A stretch of DNA of 64,000 nucleotides, taken from Cannabis sativa (taxonomy: Eukaryota > Streptophyta > Magnoliopsida > Rosales > Cannabaceae). The stretch spans positions 40,977,686-41,041,685 of the forward strand of contig NC_083604.1 of NCBI RefSeq assembly GCF_029168945.1. Direction: 5' to 3'. The translations under genes and the position numbers were made by a program. The stretch's first letter is position 1, and every line of letters begins with the position of its first letter. The notes beneath the pieces are model-generated. The model had not been told where the DNA came from, did no database searches, and saw only the letters and a list, made by a program, of their open reading frames with translations. This document shows, piece after piece, positions 9,886-64,000 of the stretch.

Positions 9886-12816
<2,931 letters not shown>

Positions 12817-36199: not shown

Positions 36200-38097
36200 T
36201 GTTGGATATTATTTTACCAGGATCTTAGATCTACTCACAAGTATGTTGATTAACACCCTAAATATGAACTTTCTAAAACGATGAAATAAACACATATAAA
36301 GTTTAAAGAAACCTTACATTGGGTGCAGCGGAATATAACGACTCCTTCCGTTCAGATATCTAGCCCTTGATTCCTTTTTGTAGCAGAGCATTATCAATAT
36401 CTGAACCTGGATCTCTTTCTCTAAATCTTTGATGCTGAAACCTCCTTCTTGCTGAAAGTCTTTCTTCACGATCTTCCTCACTATGATTGAGGTATCACTT
36501 GCTGTGCGTGGGCACTACTCATACACTAAGGATTTTCGAAATTGAAGAGGAAGAGAGAGAGAGAGTGGGTTCGGCCAAAGATAGGGAGAGAGAAGACTCA
36601 GTTTTTTCTGAATCAGAAGTGTCAGAAGAAAAGTGTGTTTTTCCTGAAGCCTTCACTATCTATTTATAGCATTCCACTAGGGTTAGGTTTGAATTATTTG
36701 GCATTAAAATAATGAAAATATCAGTTTAAATTGCCTATAAAAGTGGCTGGCCATGCTTAGTGGATTTAGGCCTCACTTTTTGCAATTTTGCAGTTTTATC
36801 TTTTTTGCATTTGATTTTCTCAAAAACGCCAATTTTCTAATTCAACCATTTAAATGCCAATTCTAACTATTTAATAACTATAAATAATTATTAAATAATA
36901 TTGTCATTTATCATATTTATTAATTGAACCATACAAAGTATCATAATTAACAAATATGCCCCTATAAACTCTTTCTTTATAATTTCGCCCTTACTTAGTG
37001 AAAATTTCACAAATAGACATAGTCTAATTTGAGAATTATAATTGATTAATCAAAACTAATTACATGAGTCTTACAAGAAATATTATCTCAACTAGTGCGG
37101 GGACCATGGGTCTATATAACCGAGCTTCCAATAAGTAGATCAAGAATTTATTACTAAAATTCACTAACTTATTAATTTTTCGTTGAATCCACGCATAGAA
37201 CTTAGAATTGCACTCTCAGTATATAGAATGCTCTATATGTTCTACCATATAGACACATCATTAGTTATCCATTATTATAATCCTAATGTGATCAATGATC
37301 CTCTATATGAATGATCTACACTGTAAAGGGATTAGATTACCGTAACACCCTACTATGTATTTTATCCTTAAAACACTTGACCCCGTATAAATGATATTTC
37401 AACTTATGTGAAATGAGTACTCCACCATTTATGTTCGTTTGGTCAAGCTCGAAGGAGATCATCCTTTGCTTACTATTCGCCAGATAGAAGCTATAGATTC
37501 CTTGTTTATGTTAGCGCTCCCACTCAATTGCACTACCGTGTTCCCAAAATGTACGTATCACCCTGACCTAAAAGTAGGCTTAACTAACAAATCAAAGAAC
37601 ACGAATAGCCTTTCAAGATTAAGCCTAATCATATCAGGATTAAGATCATTTGATCTATGATCAACTAGGCGATATTGACTTGAATAGATATTACGATAAG
37701 TTTAATAAATCTAAGTCAAAGTTCAATATCGGTCCCTTCCGATGCATACTCCATGCATCCAACCTGAGCTTTACTTTAACCAATGCTCTGGAAAGAACAT
37801 AGCACTTCTCCAAATGCAAGTAAACTCTGTTGTAGATTATCATATCAGTAAAACCCCATGTCTGATAAATCTAGGAAACTTTATTCACATAGTCATGTTT
37901 ACTTTCCAATGTGTTGACAGCACAATAAACAGGATCAAGTATGTGAAAAGGGTTTCAGATGAATTTATACATTATGTACATATAATCATGAAATAAATCA
38001 TGTGAACCATGCAACCTTAAATGTTATTTCTGATCTATATTAATAAGTAAATCTGATTATATTAAAATGAGTTTTATTTAGGGCATAAAACCCAACA
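36200..38097 (-). mobile_element. Solo LTR of the B family, inverted, inside the 5' LTR of B
   Basis: On plus it runs TGTTGGATATTATTTTACC...GGCATAAAACCCAACA, the reverse complement of the B LTR. The duplication ATAAC lies at 36195-36199 and 38098-38102, and the uninterrupted ATAAC is seen in the 3' LTR of B (near 48217). Confidence 0.93.
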
Positions 38098-50611: not shown

Positions 50612-51925
50612 TGTTGGAAATTATTTTACCAGGATCTTAGATCTACTCACAAGTATGTTGATTAACACCCTAAATATGAACTTCTAAAACGATTATGAAA
50701 TAAACACATATAAAGTATGAGAAACCTTACATTGGGTACAGCAGAATAATATGACTCATTCCATTCAAATCTCTAACCCTTGTATCTTTTCTGTCGCAGA
50801 GTATTATCAAGATCTGAACCTGGATCTCTTTCTCTCCTTCTTTAGTGCTGAAACTCCTTCTTGTTGAATGTCTTTTTTCACGATCTTCCTCACTATGATT
50901 GAGGTATCACTTTCTGTGTGTGGGCACTACTCTAATCATTAAGTGGTGCAAAATTTCAAGGAAGAAGAAAGAGAAGAAGGTGGCGGCTAGGTATAGAGAG
51001 AGAAGGCTCAGGTTTTTCTCTAAAGGAAAAAGTAGAAAGTTAAGTGTTACTGAAGCCTTCACTATCTATTTATAGCATGCCACAAGGGTTAGGTTTGAAT
51101 TATTTGGCATTAAAATAATGAAAATATCAGATGATAAACCCTATAAAAGTGGCCGGCCTAGGCAATGTGGATTTGGGCCTCACTTTTTGCAATTTTGCAG
51201 TTTTATCATTTCTGCATCTCATTTTCTCAAAAAACGCCAATTTTCAAATTCAACCATTTAAATGCCAATTCTAACTATTTAATAACTATAAATAATTATT
51301 AAATAATATTGTCATTTATCATATTTATTAATTGAACCATACAAAGTATCATAATTAACAAATATGCCCCTAAACTCTTTCTTTACAATTTCACCCTTAC
51401 TTAGTGAAAAATTCACAAATAGACATAGTCTAATTTGAGAATTATAATTGATTAATCAAAACCAATTATATGAGTCTTACAAGCAATATTATCTCAACTA
51501 GTGGGGGGACCATGGGTCTATATAACCGAGCTTCCAATAAGCAGATCAAGAAATTATAATCTAAATTCACTGACTTATTAATTCTTCGTTGAATACACGC
51601 ATAGAATTGCACTCTCAGTATATATAATGCTTTATATGTTCCACCATATAGACACATCATTAGTTATCCATTGTTATAATCCTAATTTGATCAATGATCC
51701 TCTATATGAATGATCTACACTGTAAAGGGATTAGATTACCATTACACTCTACAATGTATTTTATCCTTAAAACACTTAACCCCGTATAAATGATATTTCA
51801 GCTTATGTGAAATGAGTACTCCACCATTTATTTTCGTTTGGTCAAGCTCGAAGGAGATCATCCTTTACTTACTATTCGCCAGATAGAAGCTATAGATTCC
51901 ATGTTTATGCTAGCGCTCCCACTCA
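50612..51925 (-). repeat. 3' LTR of element D, truncated
   Basis: Matches 55531 to about 56860. It ends at CGCTCCCACTCA and is fused there to leader sequence matching the reverse complement of 42840-42890. Confidence 0.93.
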
Positions 51926-55530: not shown

Positions 55531-57436
55531 TGTTGGAAATTATTTTACCAGGATCTTAGATCTACTCACAAGTATGTTGATTAACACCCTAAATATGAAC
55601 TTCTAAAACGATTATGAAATAAACACATATAAAGTATGAGAAACCTTACATTGGGTGCAGCGGAATAATATGACTCCTTCCGTTCAGATCTCTAACCCTT
55701 GTATCCTTTCTGTCGCAGAGTATTATCAAGATCTGAACTTGGATCTCTTTCTCTCGTTCTTTAGTGCTGAAACTCCTTCTTGTTGAATGTCTTTTTTCAC
55801 GATCTTCCTCACTATGATTGAGGTATCACTTGCTGTGTGTGGGCACTACTCTAATCACTAAGTGGTTTGAAATTTCAAAGAAGAAGAAAGAGAAGAAGGT
55901 GGCGGCTAGGTATAGAGAGAGAAGGCTCAGGTTTTTCTCTAAAGGAAAAAGTAGAAAGTTAAGTGTTAATTTTCTGAAGCCTTCACTATCTATTTATAGC
56001 ATTCCACAAGGGTTAGGTTTGAATTATTTAACATTAAAATAATGAAAATATCAGATGATAAACCCTATAAAAGTGGCTGGCCTAGGCAATGTGGATTTGG
56101 GCCTCACTTTTTGCAATTTTGCAGTTTTATCATTTCTGCATCTCATTTTCTCAAAAAATGCCAATTTTCAAATTCAACCATTTAAATGCCAATTCTAACT
56201 ATTTAATAACTATAAATAATTATTAAATAATATTGTCATTTATCATATTTGTTAATTGAACCATACAAAGTATCATAATTAACAAATATGCCCCTAAAAC
56301 TCTTTCTTTACAATTTCGCCCTTACTTAGTGAAAAATTCATAAATAGACATAGTCTAATTTGAGAATCATAATTGATTAATCAAAACCAATTATATGAGT
56401 CTTACAAGCAATATTATCTCAACTAGTGGGAGGACCATGGGTCTATATAACCGAGCTTCCAATAAGCAGATCAAGAATTTATAATCTAAATTCACTGACT
56501 TATTAATTCTTCGTTGAATCCACACATAGAACTTAGAATTGCACTCTCAGTATATAGAATGCTCTATATGTTCCACCATATAGACACATCATTAGTTATC
56601 CATTGTTATAATCCTAATTTGATCAATGATCCTCTATATGAATGATCTACACTGTAAAGGGATTAGATTACCGTTACACCCTACAATTTATTTTATCCTT
56701 AAAATACTTAACCCCGTATAAATGATATTTCAGCTTATGTGAAATGAGTACTCCACCATTTATTTTCGTTTGGTCAAGCTCGAAGGAGATCATCCTTTAC
56801 TTACTATTCGCCAGATAGAAGCTATAGATTCCATGTTTATGTTAGCGCTCCCACTCAATTGCACTACCGTGTTCCCAAAATGTACGTATCACCCTGACCC
56901 AAAAGTAGGCTTAACTAACAAATCAAAGAACACGAATAGCCTCTTGAGATTGAGCCTAATCATAACAGGATTAAGATCATTTGATCTAGGATCAACTAGG
57001 CGATATTGACTTGAATAGATATTACGGTAAGTTTAATAAATCTAAGTCAAAGTTCAATATCGGTCCCTTCCGATGCATACTCCATGCATCCAACCTGAGC
57101 TTTACTTTAACCAATGCTCTGGAAAGAACATAGCATTTCTCCAAATGCAAGTAAACTCTGTTGTAGATTATCATATCAGTAAAATCCCGTGTCTGATAAA
57201 TCTAGGAAACTTTATTCACATAGTCATGTTTACTTTCCAAAGTATTGACAACACAATAAACAGGATCAAGTATGTGAAAAGGGTTTCAGATGAATTTATA
57301 AATCAAATAGACAAGCAATTGATAACATGAACCAAACAATACACAAATGAATGAAAAATACTTCTGTTTCTTTATTGATGTTGAATAAAATGGATTACAT
57401 TGAAATGGAGTTTTATTTAGGGCATAAAACCCAACA
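55531..57436 (-). repeat. 5' LTR of element D (complete)
   Basis: On plus it runs TGTTGGAAATTATTTTACC...GCATAAAACCCAACA, with a TATA box at 55990-55999 (minus). The primer-site region GCCTCAGAGCCATGG (minus) adjoins at about 55513-55530. Confidence 0.94.
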
Positions 57437-57441
57437 TAGAA

Positions 57442-58975
57442 GACTTCATCATTCACCCTCATTCACTCCGAGAGCTCTACTAGGGCTTGCTTCATCTTGC
57501 TTTGAGATTTTAGCTCCATCAAGTAATTCTTTTTAATCTTGAAAAATGCGACTCTACGATTCTAGAGGTACTAACAGACTTTTAAACTTATATGCGGTTC
57601 CATCTAAAATTAAAAAATTAGAAAGATTTTGCTTTCTTGTTGAAGCTTCATTTCAATTTCCACAATCAAAAATATCTTTGTCTGAGCTAAATCGAGTTGA
57701 TTTAAGCTGAATCGATCTAGGGTTAGGCTAATTAAACTAGAGGAATCATCTTGAGATGAGAAATGTGTCATTGTAAACAAACACGAAGACTGCCAACTCG
57801 TCTGGACCCTTATACTGCCCAATACACCAGAGCAAAGAAAACAAAGTCACATTTCTTAATTTTACTCACTTTTCGAAAAAGAAATATTATCAATGACTAG
57901 ATAAAGTCATAGAAAAAAGAAAATATACAAATTCTTCTTTGATTTTCAGAGTTGTATTGATAAATGGGATTAGAAAAACAAGTTTTCAACAACGAAATTA
58001 TGTTATCTTTGGATAGATTTTAGGACCTTATTTTGCTTACATTTTTAACTTTTTAGTTCATAAAATAGGATTGGGATGGCTGGAAAGATGAAGGAAAATA
58101 AGAAGAAGAAGAGGATAAGGCTGGGAGCAAGATAGGAGAAAGAAGAAAGAAGAAGGAGAAGAAGAAAAATGGGGTTGGTGTGACTGGGATTTCCTGGTGT
58201 GCGCAACTACTAAAAAATGAAGGAAGAAGAGATGAGGGAGAGAATTAAATGGGCGGGCTAAGATTTTTTTTGTTCTTTTTGAATTTTGAGACATAATATT
58301 GGGAGGTCCACTGAGAACTACCTAGGTAGGATATTAAGAATACCCTATCTCGTTGGACCCCCTGAGATTGGGCCTCCAACAATATTTATTTATTTATTTT
58401 AAATAATCACCAATCTTGGCGACTTTTTATAAAAATCATTGAGATAACTCATCTTTCTTGTAGTGGGTAGGTGGTGGATGGTGGTGGTTCTCTATAGTAT
58501 GATGAAGAAGAATGAAGAAGAAGAATAAAATTGGAAAAGAAAAAAAGAAAGAAAAAAAAGTGCAAATAGAATCCGTGTAAAAAAGAAAGAATTAGAAGGA
58601 AGAAAGAAATTAAAATAAAAAATAATTAAAAAAAAAATATTTTTAAAAGAATATATAAAATAAAATGTTTAATAAAATTTTTAATTTTAACAATGCGACG
58701 TAATGTGATTTTGAGTGACATGGCAATAACGTATTGACTTGGCACTTAGTATTTCGGGCCAAGTAAGTAAATAACCGAGACAAATGAATGGAAGTGATGA
58801 ATTGGTAACAGTATAGGGGTTTTGGAGATTTTACTGTTAAAATTATAGTTAGAGTTAATTATTACCGAGGTGAAATTATTAGAGGTTTTATCACAATTAA
58901 CTGATAGGATATTTATTGTCATTTATTAGAGTTGTTGTACCAAAAATAAAAAATTACATACCAACAGTATAACTA
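57442..58975. other. Non-coding region right of element D
   Basis: No gene recognised. A GAAGAAG-rich purine stretch lies at 58080-58170. A word CTTTCTTGTAGTG (58453-58465) resembles an inverted CACTA-transposon end. The remainder is AT-rich. Confidence 0.5.
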
Positions 58976-59495
58976 GGGAAATTTCAATTTTTGGCCTTAA
59001 TAATACAAGCCATATCAAAATTTATACCCTTCCTTAATTTGTACAAATTTAGTCCATTAATTACATGAACTTCCCATTTTACCCTTTTTTTTTCAAAAAA
59101 AAATAAAATAAAATAGCTAAAATCTGAAATTGATCTTTCTCTCTCTCTTCCCTCTTCCCTCTCTCTCGTGCACCACTCTCTCTCTCTAGAAAAAAACTAA
59201 AAAATTTATCAAACAATTTCCCTCTATTCGTCCCACTCTCTCGTCACTCTCTTTCTTCCCTCTTGAATGGTTGTTTTCTCGGTGGGTGTTGGTGGAAAAC
59301 CAAAGCACAACTCAATATCACTCAAGAATCTTACACCATTATAATGGGTAAGTTGTATTTTAAGCATTTTGTTTGACTTTATGTAGTTTAAAATTGTTAT
59401 ATGTGTGTTTTTTGTTGGAACTGCTGTTTTTTGGTCTGAAATTGTTGAGATCTGGCAGATCTGGTTTTCAGTCGAATTCTGGGTTTTCCAGTGTT

Positions 59496-59741
59496 ATCGA
59501 TGATATATCGATACTATGTCGATGGTTTGTCGATGATTACAAAAGGAAAGGTCAGTGACGACCATTATCGACGTTATGTCGACATAATGTCGACATGTTG
59601 TCGACATCATGCAACCAACATGGTATTTACTATTTGTCGACATTTTGTCGACAGTTGTCGACAGCATGTCGACAAGAAGCATTTTTCTTTTTTTTAGAAG
59701 TTGTCGATATTTTGTCGACATGATGTCGACAAAATATCGAT
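59496..59741 (+). repeat. Left block of TCGA quartets in the MULE intron
   Basis: TCGA cores begin at 59497/59508/59519/59530, 59568/59579/59590/59601, 59637/59648/59658/59669 and 59704/59715/59726/59737. Each group is four sites at 11 bp (one step is 10). Groups start 71, 69 and 67 bp apart. Nine of the sites are the palindrome GTCGAC. Confidence 0.95.
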
Positions 59742-59917
59742 GCAAATGAAAAAAAACCGTGAATAAAACATAAACATAACATAACATTAACATTAAATAA
59801 AGTTCATAAAAAAACATAACATAACATAAAAAAAACATAAAAAAAAAACAGAAAATAAAGTTCATAAAAAAAAAACAAACATTAAATAAAACTCACCACA
59901 AGCCATAACATAAGAAA
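59742..59917. repeat. AACATA-rich low-complexity stretch
   Basis: Repeated AACATAACAT and ATAAAGTTCATAAAA words, plus A-runs, lie 3' of the antisense gene. Confidence 0.75.
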
Positions 59918-60160
59918 TTATTTTTTTTTAAATTCTTTGGCTTGTGGGTGAGCCTTGCAATACTTGCATAATGTTCCAGGCTTCACCGGTTTACCGTTAA
60001 AGATGCCTAGTTTGCAACGACGGCATCCTTCGGGGAACCCTGGTGGTGGAGCCGGCCATACACCAGTTTTGCAAAAATGTGCTTCAAGTTGCCTGAACCT
60101 GAACTCGTTCCCACATCGTTCTCTTTCGAAAGCTCTTTGGGCGTCAAAAACTTTCTGCAT
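59918..60160 (-). CDS. Small unknown protein with two CxxC pairs, antisense inside the MULE intron
   Basis: Not recognised. The Met-started frame is 80 residues, but the same frame stays open upstream to about 60265 (SKYGPRKNKGKFPILTPEEL...). An upstream ATG at 60247-60249 is one base out of phase with it, so the original protein was probably about 110 residues. It is basic at both ends, with a charged middle (AFERERCGNEFRFRQLEAHF), then a Pro-rich turn (WPAPPPGFPEG) and CRRC...CKYC, a possible zinc-binding pair, ending EFKKK. A TATA box lies 85 bases upstream of the ATG. It sits between the two TCGA-quartet blocks. It may be a second MULE gene, a captured host fragment, or the cargo of a separate insertion. 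Confidence 0.55.
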   Translation of the reverse strand: MQKVFDAQRAFERERCGNEFRFRQLEAHFCKTGVWPAPPPGFPEGCRRCKLGIFNGKPVKPGTLCKYCKAHPQAKEFKKK

Positions 60161-60333
60161 TTCAGGAGTAACTATGCCAACATCAGGCTCCTGCTTCAGC
60201 TCTTCAGGAGTTAAGATGGGGAATTTGCCTTTGTTCTTTCTTGGGCCATATTTAGAACTTAAGAATAAGAGAAATTTTTAAGAGTAAGAGAGAAGTAGTA
60301 GACAAGAGCACTTATGAATAAGAAAGGGATTTG

Positions 60334-60341
60334 CTTTTATA
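60334..60341 (-). promoter_or_regulatory. TATA box for the antisense intronic gene
   Basis: TATAAAAG on the minus strand, within CTCTATAAAAGC. It is spaced suitably (85 bases) before ATG 60247-60249, with a CT-rich leader between. Confidence 0.5.
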
Positions 60342-60428
60342 GAGCAGTAAACATGTTGGGAATGTATGAAAATTTAATGGTCATTAAATGCGTAACTGTA
60401 CAGGTAAAACGCCTGAAATGGTGTATTT

Positions 60429-60795
60429 GTCGACTGAATGTCGATACTATGTCGACATCATGTCGACAACATGCCAATTTAGTGTCACTGCTAACTCATT
60501 TGTCGATGCCATGTCGACGTCATGTCGACAGCTTGTCGATAGGACACGTGTCTGACATGCAACGTGTCAGTTGGGAAGGGTTGTTGGGAACGTGGGTAAA
60601 ATTTATTAACATTAAATGTGTAACCGTTGTTAATTGTCGATTGTATGTCGATGGTATGTCGATATTATGTCGATGGCGAGCATGCTTGGTGTGGTTGTCG
60701 ATGTTATGTCGATAGTATGTCGACACAATGTCGACAATCAGTGCCATTATTTCTACTGTTGTTATTATCGACATTATGTCTATTGATATCGATTT
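60429..60795 (+). repeat. Right block of TCGA quartets in the MULE intron
   Basis: TCGA cores begin at 60430/60441/60452/60463, 60503/60514/60525/60536, 60637/60648/60659/60670 and 60698/60709/60720/60731, all steps exactly 11 bp. A decayed group follows at 60768, 60779 (TCTA) and 60789. Group spacing is 73, 134, 61 and about 70. Each of the four full groups opens TTGTCGA and mostly continues with ATGTCGA. Confidence 0.95.
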
Positions 60796-63446
60796 TTATT
60801 TTTTTTTTGGGTGTTTTTTCCTTTACTCACCTTGTTTTTTTGGTTTGCAATTGCAGGAGACAAAGTGTTCCTTGTTGTATCGTACGATGGTGTTTGGTTA
60901 TGTGAGAATTATAATTGGATCTACAAAGCAAATAGCAGCTTGACGTTGACAGTTACAACCGAGACAACCCTACAAGAACTGCGACAAATTTTATATGAAG
61001 AGTTGGAAGTTGATCCGGTAGCGTATGATTTAAAGTTGGAGATTTGTTCCTTGTACATGAAGGGAAAAATGGTTGCGCCAGAGGTTATTAACAGAGAACG
61101 CCAACTGAGAACGTTTTTAGAGATGATGGCAACAATGTCAAATACAGAGTTTATGCCATTATTCGTGACCAAGGTGAGAAAAGTTGGGAATTCGGAGCCT
61201 ACGCCGCCTACTAATCCTCTCCCTCGGAGTGTGGTAGGGTCTTGCGTTCCCGAAACAGATGTTGGGATTGGTGTGAATGAGGAGGTTCCGGCCAATTTAG
61301 AGGTTCCGACCAATTTAGAGGTTCCGACCAATGTAGGGCAAGAACAAGAAGCGACAGGATTTCATCAGTTTGAAGAGTTCGATACACCCTTCTACAATAA
61401 CGATCCTATTGTAGATTTGAATATGGACGATGAACATGATTTAGCAGTCGATGAAGCCGTAGCGGGACCATTGTTGAGGTTAGAGTGTGTACCGAGTAAC
61501 CAAGGTACGCAGCGAGAACGACAACCTCGTAGTGAAAATCGCACTACACCTGGAACTAGCAGTAGTCGACCAGGCAGAACTGAAGAACATGCTCGTCATG
61601 CAACGTTCTCAACGTTCTCCTCTTTTGAAGTTTGTACCAAGTTCAAAGCTCCCATGTGGACAAAGGAAGATATAATGGAAAATCATGAGCTAACTACTTG
61701 TTTACAAAGTAAGGAAGCAGGGGTGATAGAGCTTGGTAATTTTTATGAAAACAAGGAAGAACTGAGACAAGTAGTGGGTAGGTTTGCACTTAATAACAAT
61801 TTCGAGTGGATGGTGAAGAAGTCATCCCCTGATGTGTTGTACGTTACATGCAAGGCTCCAGATTGTAAATGGAGATTGAGGGGAGGAAGAAGATGCATTC
61901 TGACAACTTTGAGGTCACTGTATTTCACAATGAACACACATGTAACTTGAATGCGAGACATTCAGATCACCGTCAAGCAGCACCATGGGTAGTTGGCCAC
62001 CTTATTAAGGGGAAGTACACCCAAGACGGAACTAAGTACAAGGCTAAAGACATACAGAGGGACATGTTTGACAACTACGGTATCAGTATGAGTTATGTGA
62101 AGGCGTGGAGGTGCAGGGAGATGGGACTTACGTATGCTAGGGGTACGCCTGAGTTTTCATACATGAAGCTTCCTGGGTACTTGTACATGCTGGAACAGAA
62201 GAATCCAGGTACCATTACTGACTTGTACTTAGAGGATGAGCGGTTCAAGTACTGTTTTATATCACTCGGTGCATGTAGAAGGGGCTTTTCTTTTTGTCGT
62301 CCTGTTTTGAGTATCGATGGAACCTTCTTGAAGACGAAGTACGGCGGTATAATGTTAGTTGCTGTGGCATACGATGCGAACAACCAATTGTTGCCGGTTG
62401 CTTATGGTATCGTTGACAGTGAGAATAACGACTCCTGGACGTATTTCTTACAGAAGTTGAGGGTAGCAATTGGCGTGGTTGAGAACTTAGTGTTTGTGTC
62501 AGATAGGCATCAAAGCATTGATCATGCTGTTGAACTCGTTTTTCCCGAAGCAGTCCACTGTGCATGCTATCACCACATTGTTATGAACGTGAACGCCAAA
62601 TTCAAGACTGATGCTTTTCACAACCAAATATATAATGTTGCTTACGCATGGTCGAAGACTGAATGCGATAGAGAGTTCGAGAAGCTTAGAAAGATGAATC
62701 CGGCCATTGCTGCATATGTGGAGAGTATAGGGTTTGAGAAGTGGGCTCACCCTTATTGTTTGGGCGATAGATACAACATCATGACGAGCAACGCTGCTGA
62801 AAGCTTCAATAGTGTCACAGAAGAGTTCAGGGAATATCCAATAACTACTTTGGTTGAATTTATCAGGTTCACACTCCAATCGTGGTTCGCTGATCGCCTC
62901 GAAAATGCTGACAAATGTGCCACCCCTTTGGCCACGCTCTTTGAAAAAAACTTGGCAAAAATTCATGAAAATACAAGGTACAGGCGCGTCCAACGAAATG
63001 GAGCCAATTTGTATAACGTTGGTAGGGGACCTAACGGTGAAAGAGGTGGTGATGTGAATCTAGTTGAAAGAACATGCACCTGCGGCGTGTTCACGTTATT
63101 GAAACTCCCTTGCCTTCATGCATGTGCCGCGACATTGAAAACGAACACAAGTGTGTACACGCTTTGCTCACCTTATTATTCAAAAGAAACGTGGAGGAAG
63201 ATTTACGATGATACCATCAATCTTGCTGGTGACGAGGATGATTGGGTTCTCCCAGAACACATGAAGAATATGAAAGTTGGCGTACCTATGGAAAAGAAGC
63301 CTGTAGGTCGTCCAAGAAAAAGCAACGCTGGAAGAAGATGGGAGAACCGTTTCCCGTCTGGTGATAAAAAAGGTTCTGTACCACGAAACTGCAGCCATTG
63401 TGGCGATTCGAGCCACAACAGAGCAACATGCAAAGCCCGCATCTGA

Positions 63447-63701: not shown

Positions 63702-64000
63702 TCAGCCGACATTTTGGTAAAATAAATCAACACACCACCGTTGACGAAACATAGCTATCCGGTCTGGCGTCACATCAGTCAATCCACACTGCATCATGAG
63801 ATGCTCCACATACTCAATGCAATAGACGCCACAATCACCACTAAATGCAAAATAAAATGTAAAGTCAGTCTAACGTAAAACATATTTTAATACTAAGTAC
63901 TTTTTTATCGCTATGTACCTGGTTGCTGACTTCGGAACTAAGTCGTGAGTGGCTCGAGTCGAGTGCATTTTTGGAAGCACCGTGATGTCACAGTTAGCTA
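63702..64000 (-). CDS. Ulp1-like SUMO protease (peptidase C48) C-terminus carried by the MULE, partial
   Basis: Two minus-strand exons are visible: 63919-64000 (continuing out of the window) and 63702-63840, stop TGA at 63702-63704. Intron 63841-63918 has GT and AG ends and keeps phase. The last exon reads SGDCGVYCIEYVEHLM. The DCG triplet with its Cys is the nucleophile site of Ulp1 (C48) proteases, and the pattern that follows fits the family. The His-Asp part of the triad would lie further 5', beyond the window. Captured Ulp1 genes are a defined feature of Kaonashi MULEs; their role is not settled. No break is seen in the visible part. Confidence 0.85.

Follow-up and report, generated by a model that had tools for sequence, protein, structure and literature searches.

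The window, a stretch of 64,000 nucleotides of Cannabis sativa DNA, ends inside a MULE that becomes complete when the sequence is read past the window end (locus L031). This element is 8,817 bp long (58976-67792 in extended coordinates), and the 9-bp target-site duplication GTATAACTA is perfect on both of its flanks; target-site duplications of MULEs range in length from 8 to 11 bp. It carries a transposase gene on the plus strand, a DUF1985/Ulp1 gene on the minus strand, and a small antisense cysteine-rich ORF. Its TIR, target-site duplication, and transposase bear out the preliminary description of this DNA, which had made an array of TCGA sites part of a MULE. The features within the window are the following:

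58967..58975, no strand: left copy of the target-site duplication, 9 bp; the right copy follows directly after 67792, outside the window
58976..59062, plus strand: left TIR, 87 bp, 86% identical to the right TIR at 67706-67792 (extended coordinates)
59344..59347, plus strand: predicted transposase exon 1, ATGG, followed by the donor GTAAG; ATGGGTAAG is kept in 20 of 21 copies
59348..60856, plus strand: predicted transposase intron 1, containing blocks 1 and 2 and the antisense ORF; its 3' end, TTGCAGGAGACAAAG, is kept in 19 of 21 copies
59497..59533, plus strand: TCGA quartet 1, steps 11/11/11
59568..59604, plus strand: TCGA quartet 2, steps 11/11/11
59637..59672, plus strand: TCGA quartet 3, steps 11/10/11; it varies more between siblings than any other group
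59704..59740, plus strand: TCGA quartet 4, steps 11/11/11
59918..60160, minus strand: small antisense ORF, cysteine-rich (CxxC...CxxC), flanked by blocks 1 and 2
60430..60466, plus strand: TCGA quartet 5
60503..60539, plus strand: TCGA quartet 6
60637..60673, plus strand: TCGA quartet 7
60698..60734, plus strand: TCGA quartet 8
60768..60803, plus strand: ninth group, decayed, with two TCGA cores remaining in this copy (60768, 60789)
60857..63443, plus strand: transposase coding region, two overlapping frames (PF03108, PF10551, PF00872, SWIM PF04434)
63705..64000, minus strand: 3' part of the DUF1985/Ulp1 gene, with weak Peptidase_C48 fragments; the gene runs on beyond the window

All transposase domains score over their cut-offs (PF10551, 7.8e-27; PF00872, 1.8e-10; SWIM, 2.6e-7; PF03108, 1e-7). 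The two frames overlap at 61869-61947, and a similar overlap is present in the related loci L035 and L037, so that a transposase in two frames is not private to this copy. Three 18-bp direct repeats lie within the coding region, at 61282-61336. The minus-strand gene has its DUF1985 pieces at 65931-66344 (extended coordinates), with a match to PF09331 (7e-12, 45.9 bits, cut-off 35.1) at L031:2616-2924 on the minus strand; the open frame that holds this exon is just 103 residues long in this copy, against about 180-330 in most of the listed copies. Peptidase_C48 matches two adjacent minus-strand fragments below cut-off (0.0024 and 0.011).

The predicted exon structure bears on where the TCGA sites lie. 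A start followed by a donor (ATGG/GTAAG, 59344) and an acceptor (TTGCAG/GAGACAAAG, 60851) join in frame to give MGDKVFLVVSYDG, and a similar transposase start occurs in some relatives, such as P0008 (MDSTVFVAVLYDG); three others begin at a more internal position: P0007 and P0009, which are Cannabis predictions, and P0005, the nearest relative. From the in-frame splice sites and the starts of relatives we infer that blocks 1 and 2, together with the antisense ORF, are located in transposase intron 1. At the other end of the element, a putative first intron of the DUF1985/Ulp1 gene (approximately 66570-67350) would enclose a mirror array at 66621-67185. In this copy and in L035 the right array is bounded by a donor and by an acceptor that immediately precedes ATGGCTCCC; the same script did not find such sites in L037 and L040 (two of four copies positive). 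The intron positions of the arrays are thus predictions from sequence.

The region 59400-60800 holds 36 TCGA sites, versus 113 in the rest of the 64-kb window. Eight quartets with a step of 11 bp, and a single step of 10 bp, had been described and are all in place. The reported distances between group starts were likewise recovered (71, 69, and 67 bp, then 73, 134, and 61 bp); the last one, 70 bp, leads to the group at 60768, which had been called decayed and is indeed a decayed quartet with steps 11/10/11. Siblings retain three of its four cores and this copy two, and the 11-bp pair at the equivalent of 60789 and 60800 is still there in all 20 sibling copies read. Quartets 1-4 form block 1 and quartets 5-8 block 2, with the antisense ORF between them. 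These two blocks were the ones first described, but a third, mirrored block (66621-67185) lies at the right end and consists of seven quartets and one group with a single mutated core. Groups, most of them of four, follow one another every 60-80 bp or so and make up three blocks close to the two ends of the 8.8-kb MULE: the left array begins 521 bp from the left end, block 2 reaches 1.5-1.8 kb from it, and the right array stops 607 bp from the right end.

When all 256 tetramers were tried for chains of four at exactly 11 bp, TCGA gave seven, GTCG and TGTC four each, CGAT two, and CGAC one; no other tetramer gave any. The window holds 24 TCGA pairs, 14 triples, and 7 strict quartets at 11 bp, and 60 first-order Markov windows yielded a mean of 0.25 pairs, with zero triples and zero quartets. 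Protein coding does not explain the order of the array, as had been concluded before, and a search with one translated frame of the array returned no mis-annotated protein carrying it. Gaps from group to group cluster near 60, 70, and 80 bp, with a best period of 10.3-10.6. Helical phasing between groups was nevertheless set aside as a firm feature: it is only suggestive, since homologous copies inflate the signal, and for the window's element alone the share of null runs reaching it was 0.20 (quartets only) or 0.047 (all groups). Two kinds of simple repeat were also seen elsewhere in the window: a 39-base stretch made of TAACTATTAAA units is present at three places with one shared consensus (36864-36902, 51272-51310, and 56196-56234) and likely represents a dispersed repeat family, and a (GA)48 microsatellite lies at 10277-10372.

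Pattern counts over the whole 770-Mb genome, with the same patterns read backwards (AGCT) as control, covered the host-genome part of the search for 11-bp TCGA arrays that the preliminary description had proposed. TCGA triples are pitch-specific, with 7,059 at 11 bp versus 47 at 12 bp and 18 at 10 bp; the backward triples number 17 at 11 bp, 597 at 12 bp, and 49 at 10 bp, the 597 being AGCT repeats at 12 bp that are uninformative on TCGA. The quartet pattern, trimmed of its outermost T and A, occurs 3,045 times, and once backwards. Subtracting these trimmed quartets from the triples gives an estimate of roughly 4,000 groups of at least three cores.

Sibling copies were found through the left TIR (566 candidates, 40 scored), and 11 of the 40 scored, this copy among them, are identical over 100 bp. 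An alignment with other copies of the MULE had also been proposed, and both left blocks are present in all 20 siblings whose first 2 kb were read. Counted as chains of exactly 11 bp, their left ends hold 124 fours, 17 threes, and 42 twos, besides a single five and a single six. The decayed ninth group accounts for 20 of the twos, and others come from groups broken by a step other than 11. Four right ends contain 23 fours, 5 threes, 3 twos, and one six, and 12 sampled regions contain 118 chains (56 fours, 20 threes, 42 twos, none longer). Group 3 shows genuine losses of one 11-bp unit in siblings. Four is therefore the rule, not absolute, with exceptions of three, five, and six cores: the claim of exactly four sites per group holds for the eight quartets of this copy, but has exceptions in its siblings. 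Variable copy number per group, which had been named as an observation that would speak against the proposal, is seen in part in these exceptions, but fours dominate (124 in 20 left ends).

Slots flanking a four contain a core that is off by one letter in 5% of cases per side (background 2%), and 6 of 56 quartets have such a neighbour. In slots flanking twos and threes the figure is 20-40%, a pattern expected of decayed quartets. Decayed cores read TTGA or TCAA in 35 of 54 cases, versus 35% in the background, and this excess would be expected if cores get methylated once silenced.

The repeated unit has a direction. In 20 sibling left ends a T precedes the core at -2 in 641 of 642 cores, with A at +5 in 357; in four sibling right ends it is the A at +5 that is nearly invariant (118 of 119 cores), with T at -2 in 69. 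This asymmetry makes T-R-TCGA-Y the strictly kept part of the unit, followed by a free 3' flank, and has it point inwards from either end of the element. The cores had been regarded as palindromes that may each bind a dimer; this does not fit the part that is strictly kept, which is polar and inverted between the two ends. Inverted polarity of the two ends is also found in L035/36, L037/38, L040, and L046; in L042/43 it holds by a small margin. It was not found in L039 and L044, two loci without a detected TIR match, and L033 has the expected pattern on its left side only, the right side being mixed. In L046 (3650-5500), a relative with inverted ends, many cores are flanked by C and not by G/A (TTCTCGA) while the 11-bp pitch is intact; this is possibly a target variant.

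Constraint was measured in 21 left ends (2 kb), with core sites picked as TCGA in the consensus, which introduces a slight bias favouring cores. Core T and A are off consensus in 0.29% and 0.15% of cells, versus 1.9% and 1.5% for other T and A, and core C and G in 0.7% and 1.0%, versus 2.7% and 2.3% for other C and G. Conservation of the core letters thus exceeds that of their counterparts in the rest of the 2 kb two- to ten-fold, and the core CpG is retained in 98.7% of 689 cells, versus 94.7% of 685 for other CpGs. Spacer centres, off consensus in 4-7% of cells, are less conserved than background. The flanks -1 (R) and +4 (Y) change at the background rate (1.5% and 1.9%), yet remain R and Y. 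The number of indels per kb and copy is 4.05 within groups and 3.94 between them, with 5.71 for the antisense gene and 9.18 for the remaining sequence, and 14 of the 24 events within groups fall in group 3; as the rate within groups equals that between them, indels do not mark the spacing of the groups as specially protected. A PWM was derived from 51 quartets, mostly of one lineage.

Ten of the first eleven array clusters listed on contig C1 were read over 10 to 20 kb, chosen regardless of gene content; the eleventh (2.09 Mb) was read over approximately 3 kb and left out of the gene scan. Pieces of the element genes were present in seven of the ten (L035/36, L037/38, L039, L040, L044, L045, and L046), with a single short piece each in L045 and L046, and no recognised element genes were found in the 10-20 kb read of the other three (L033, L034, and L042/43). 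TIRs homologous to those of this MULE occur in the gene-less L033 and L042/43. L033 is a long-TIR element with quartets inside its TIRs, L040 is a deletion derivative that retained its arrays, and L044 has arrays and transposase, with DUF1985 not found in the 10 kb read. The gene-less array element of L042/43 also contains two stretches of 1.88 kb (L042:4855-6728 and L043:3014-4893) that are 98.8% identical and are probably the LTRs of a recent insertion.

By raw count, a DUF1985 exon in opposite orientation, as expected, lies no more than 8 kb from 29 of the 40 scored left TIRs, at 6.9-7.4 kb for 25 of them. Five more have one at 12-29 kb, and six have none on the list, which holds the best 150 of 942 candidate exons, at 89-100% identity; one of these six, L035/36, does carry a more diverged DUF1985. 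The DUF1985 pieces of L037 and L039 are mostly about 58-66% identical, yet core and pitch are the same there, and co-variation of the DUF1985 protein with the motif was not seen in these diverged pieces.

Element-encoded proteins that act on tandem motifs are known from VANDAL MULEs. In the parts of the accounts that could be compared, DUF1985 is one of two domains marked in VANC proteins, and the targets of VANC21 are tandem motif repeats upstream of VANA21 and in introns of VANB21 and VANC21 (PMC5735166). The statement that no described MULE has such an array therefore holds in part only: VANC-targeted tandem motifs in noncoding parts of VANDAL MULEs were already known (PMC5735166, PMC10398659, in excerpt), but the 11-bp quartet geometry is absent from the accounts compared. 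The cannabis element is like VANDAL21 and VANDAL6 in these excerpts in having short noncoding repeats upstream of the transposase and in (here predicted) introns, in encoding DUF1985, and in repeat copy numbers that differ between copies; its three blocks of TCGA groups are a short tandem motif in noncoding parts of the element, as in VANDALs. The other domain of VANC proteins, DUF287, was not found here in seven separate pieces of the DUF1985/Ulp1 gene, between which exon joins are uncertain. The motifs given for VANDAL21/VANDAL6, YAGTATTAY and AGTTGTCC/AC, also differ from TRTCGAY, which is neither YAGTATTAY nor AGTTGTMC and contains a CpG. The fixed 11-bp pitch, the quartets, and the end-inverted polarity have no counterpart in the compared portions of PMC5735166 and PMC10398659.

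A second likeness is to the KIU/Kaonashi Vandal MULEs, which according to a review have a transposase together with a DUF1985 and Ulp1-like gene; the KIU members, with VANC plus Ulp1, are said there to target motifs in noncoding sequence of elements like themselves (PMC13317346). The likeness follows this description, motif geometry aside and with a candidate Ulp1 part here, matched below cut-off, and these elements are described as non-TIR, versus an 87-bp TIR here. The descriptions of VANDAL ends disagree, as the same review makes VANDALs non-TIR MULEs while TIRs are mentioned for VANDAL21 in the portion compared of PMC10398659; the cannabis MULE, with its 87-bp TIR at 86% identity, was left outside the VANDAL class. 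TCGA quartets or arrays in Cannabis MULEs appear in none of the titles and abstract openings listed, a comparison that did not extend to the EMBO J 2022 study of VANC/KIU in eudicots, and in the part compared of a Cannabis assembly paper Mutator is named in a repeat table only (PMC12869074). As far as the compared literature shows, then, an element-encoded protein with tandem targets in a MULE is known, and the 11-bp, mostly four-fold, polar, and end-inverted geometry is new.

Arrays beside the 5' parts of genes and an encoded DUF1985 protein match the known VANC targets and lead us to favour an anti-silencing role. We tentatively predict that the TCGA quartets may well be docking sites of the element's own DUF1985/Ulp1 (VANC/KIU-like) anti-silencing protein, which would recognise copies of its family through them and lift their silencing. 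Since the pitch is about one helical turn, the four sites would lie on nearly one face of the DNA; the bound protein would then sit four in a row and shield or demethylate the core CpGs, and this protection would open promoter regions and ends to transcription and transposition. A stricter version, possible though we doubt it, is that a quartet acts as a self-recognition barcode, in which four polar CpG sites are read by a putative element protein of four subunits or four modules that counts; silencing would then be lifted only where pitch, number, and direction are all correct. Against a DUF1985 binder stand the arrays in gene-less L033, L034, and L042/43 and in L044, where DUF1985 was not found, which suit a transposase equally well; one trans-acting protein could serve array loci without DUF1985. 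The unchanged core and pitch beside diverged DUF1985 pieces, the lack of a DUF287 match in the seven pieces scanned, the background rate of change at the R and Y flanks, the equal indel rates, and the loci without inverted polarity also count against this reading, whereas pitch specificity, polarity, core constraint, the DUF1985 exons near left TIRs, and the TTGA/TCAA decay count for it.

The main rival is that the arrays are subterminal sites of the MULE transposase, loaded at both inverted ends for pairing, which we consider a real possibility but on the whole rather unlikely. Arrays at 521 and 607 bp from the left and right ends, with inverted polarity, would suit it, as do the homologous-TIR loci without recognised genes, L033 and L042/43, which retain arrays at about 470-490 bp from their ends (the distance at the left end of L033 was computed after omitting a putative nested insertion), and L044, where arrays are kept alongside transposase with no DUF1985 found in 10 kb. 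There are, however, eight groups per end, and to our knowledge known MULE transposase sites are far fewer. In the full-length element the arrays are moreover hundreds of bp inward, outside the 87-bp TIR, with block 2 up to 1.5-1.8 kb away from the left end, and those of L039 and L044 are not inverted. Maize Mutator offers a parallel, as its TIRs contain transposase sites and promoters (PMC3310237, as far as compared): cis sites near both ends are common to the two systems, and the gene-less long-TIR relative L033 has them as well, but the arrays of the full-length cannabis element are interior to the TIR and repeated tens of times.

The antisense cysteine-rich protein would be an improbable binder of the arrays and regulator of the element. 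Its ORF has block 1 on one side and block 2 on the other, and the versions in L035/36, L037, and L040 are 87-99% identical to it; its relatives are 106-109 aa long (three of four named Cannabis sativa), and CxxC...CxxC is invariant in five antisense sequences. Yet no match was found in L033, L034, L039, L042-L044, and L046, although arrays are present there, the frame in this copy opens only at residue 30 of the relatives, and the protein has no Pfam match and a poor AlphaFold model (pLDDT 59).

Slightly less probable still is that the arrays serve as intronic enhancers bound by a transcription factor of the host, for instance an auxin-response factor (ARF). The predicted first-intron location, the sense orientation, and the 11-bp pitch would suit a host enhancer, and the synthetic DR5 element consists of TGTCNN direct repeats at the same pitch. 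ARF sites require TGTC, however, and here 35% of half-sites (51 quartets) have A in place of the G of TGTC, while the C and G of TCGA are kept; as these 51 quartets were selected for TCGA, the fair test of the ARF reading is conservation in the 21 left ends only. The conserved letters are those of TCGA, TGTC is not invariant, and a DR5/ARF element was rejected.

We regard as very improbable a function in RNA, by which the palindromic cores would fold each quartet of an intron transcript into a hairpin. Folding against dinucleotide shuffles is strong (z -10.4 for block 1, 59490-59745, and z -5.1 for block 2), but spacers 1 and 3 are complementary at 0.509 versus 0.485 for shuffled partners (z 1.06, or 1.14 with G-U; 55 quartets). 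With no clear complementarity of the spacers, the strong fold probably follows from the palindromic cores, and the hairpin was rejected as these 55 quartets show no covarying stem beyond the core.

The least probable reading, a functionless ordinary minisatellite from slippage with near-identical units and free copy number, which the preliminary description had also weighed, could draw on the groups of three, five, and six cores and on losses of whole 11-bp units, but does not look right for this array: its cores are held and its spacer centres change faster than background, spacers differ within groups whose cores and pitch persist, none of the 118 chains in 12 regions exceeds four (56 are fours) and fives and sixes are rare in siblings, and the units are polar and linked to one MULE lineage.

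The array bears on how VANC-type proteins single out their own family among thousands of transposons. As a target it has a fixed pitch, a usual number of sites, and a polarity, and it occurs in roughly 4,000 groups; it lends itself to direct recognition tests on short synthetic DNA, and the clean TCGA motif can be used to find its reader among the element proteins. Should the anti-silencing protein turn out to bind, the quartets would provide a sequence-specific demethylation handle outside Arabidopsis.
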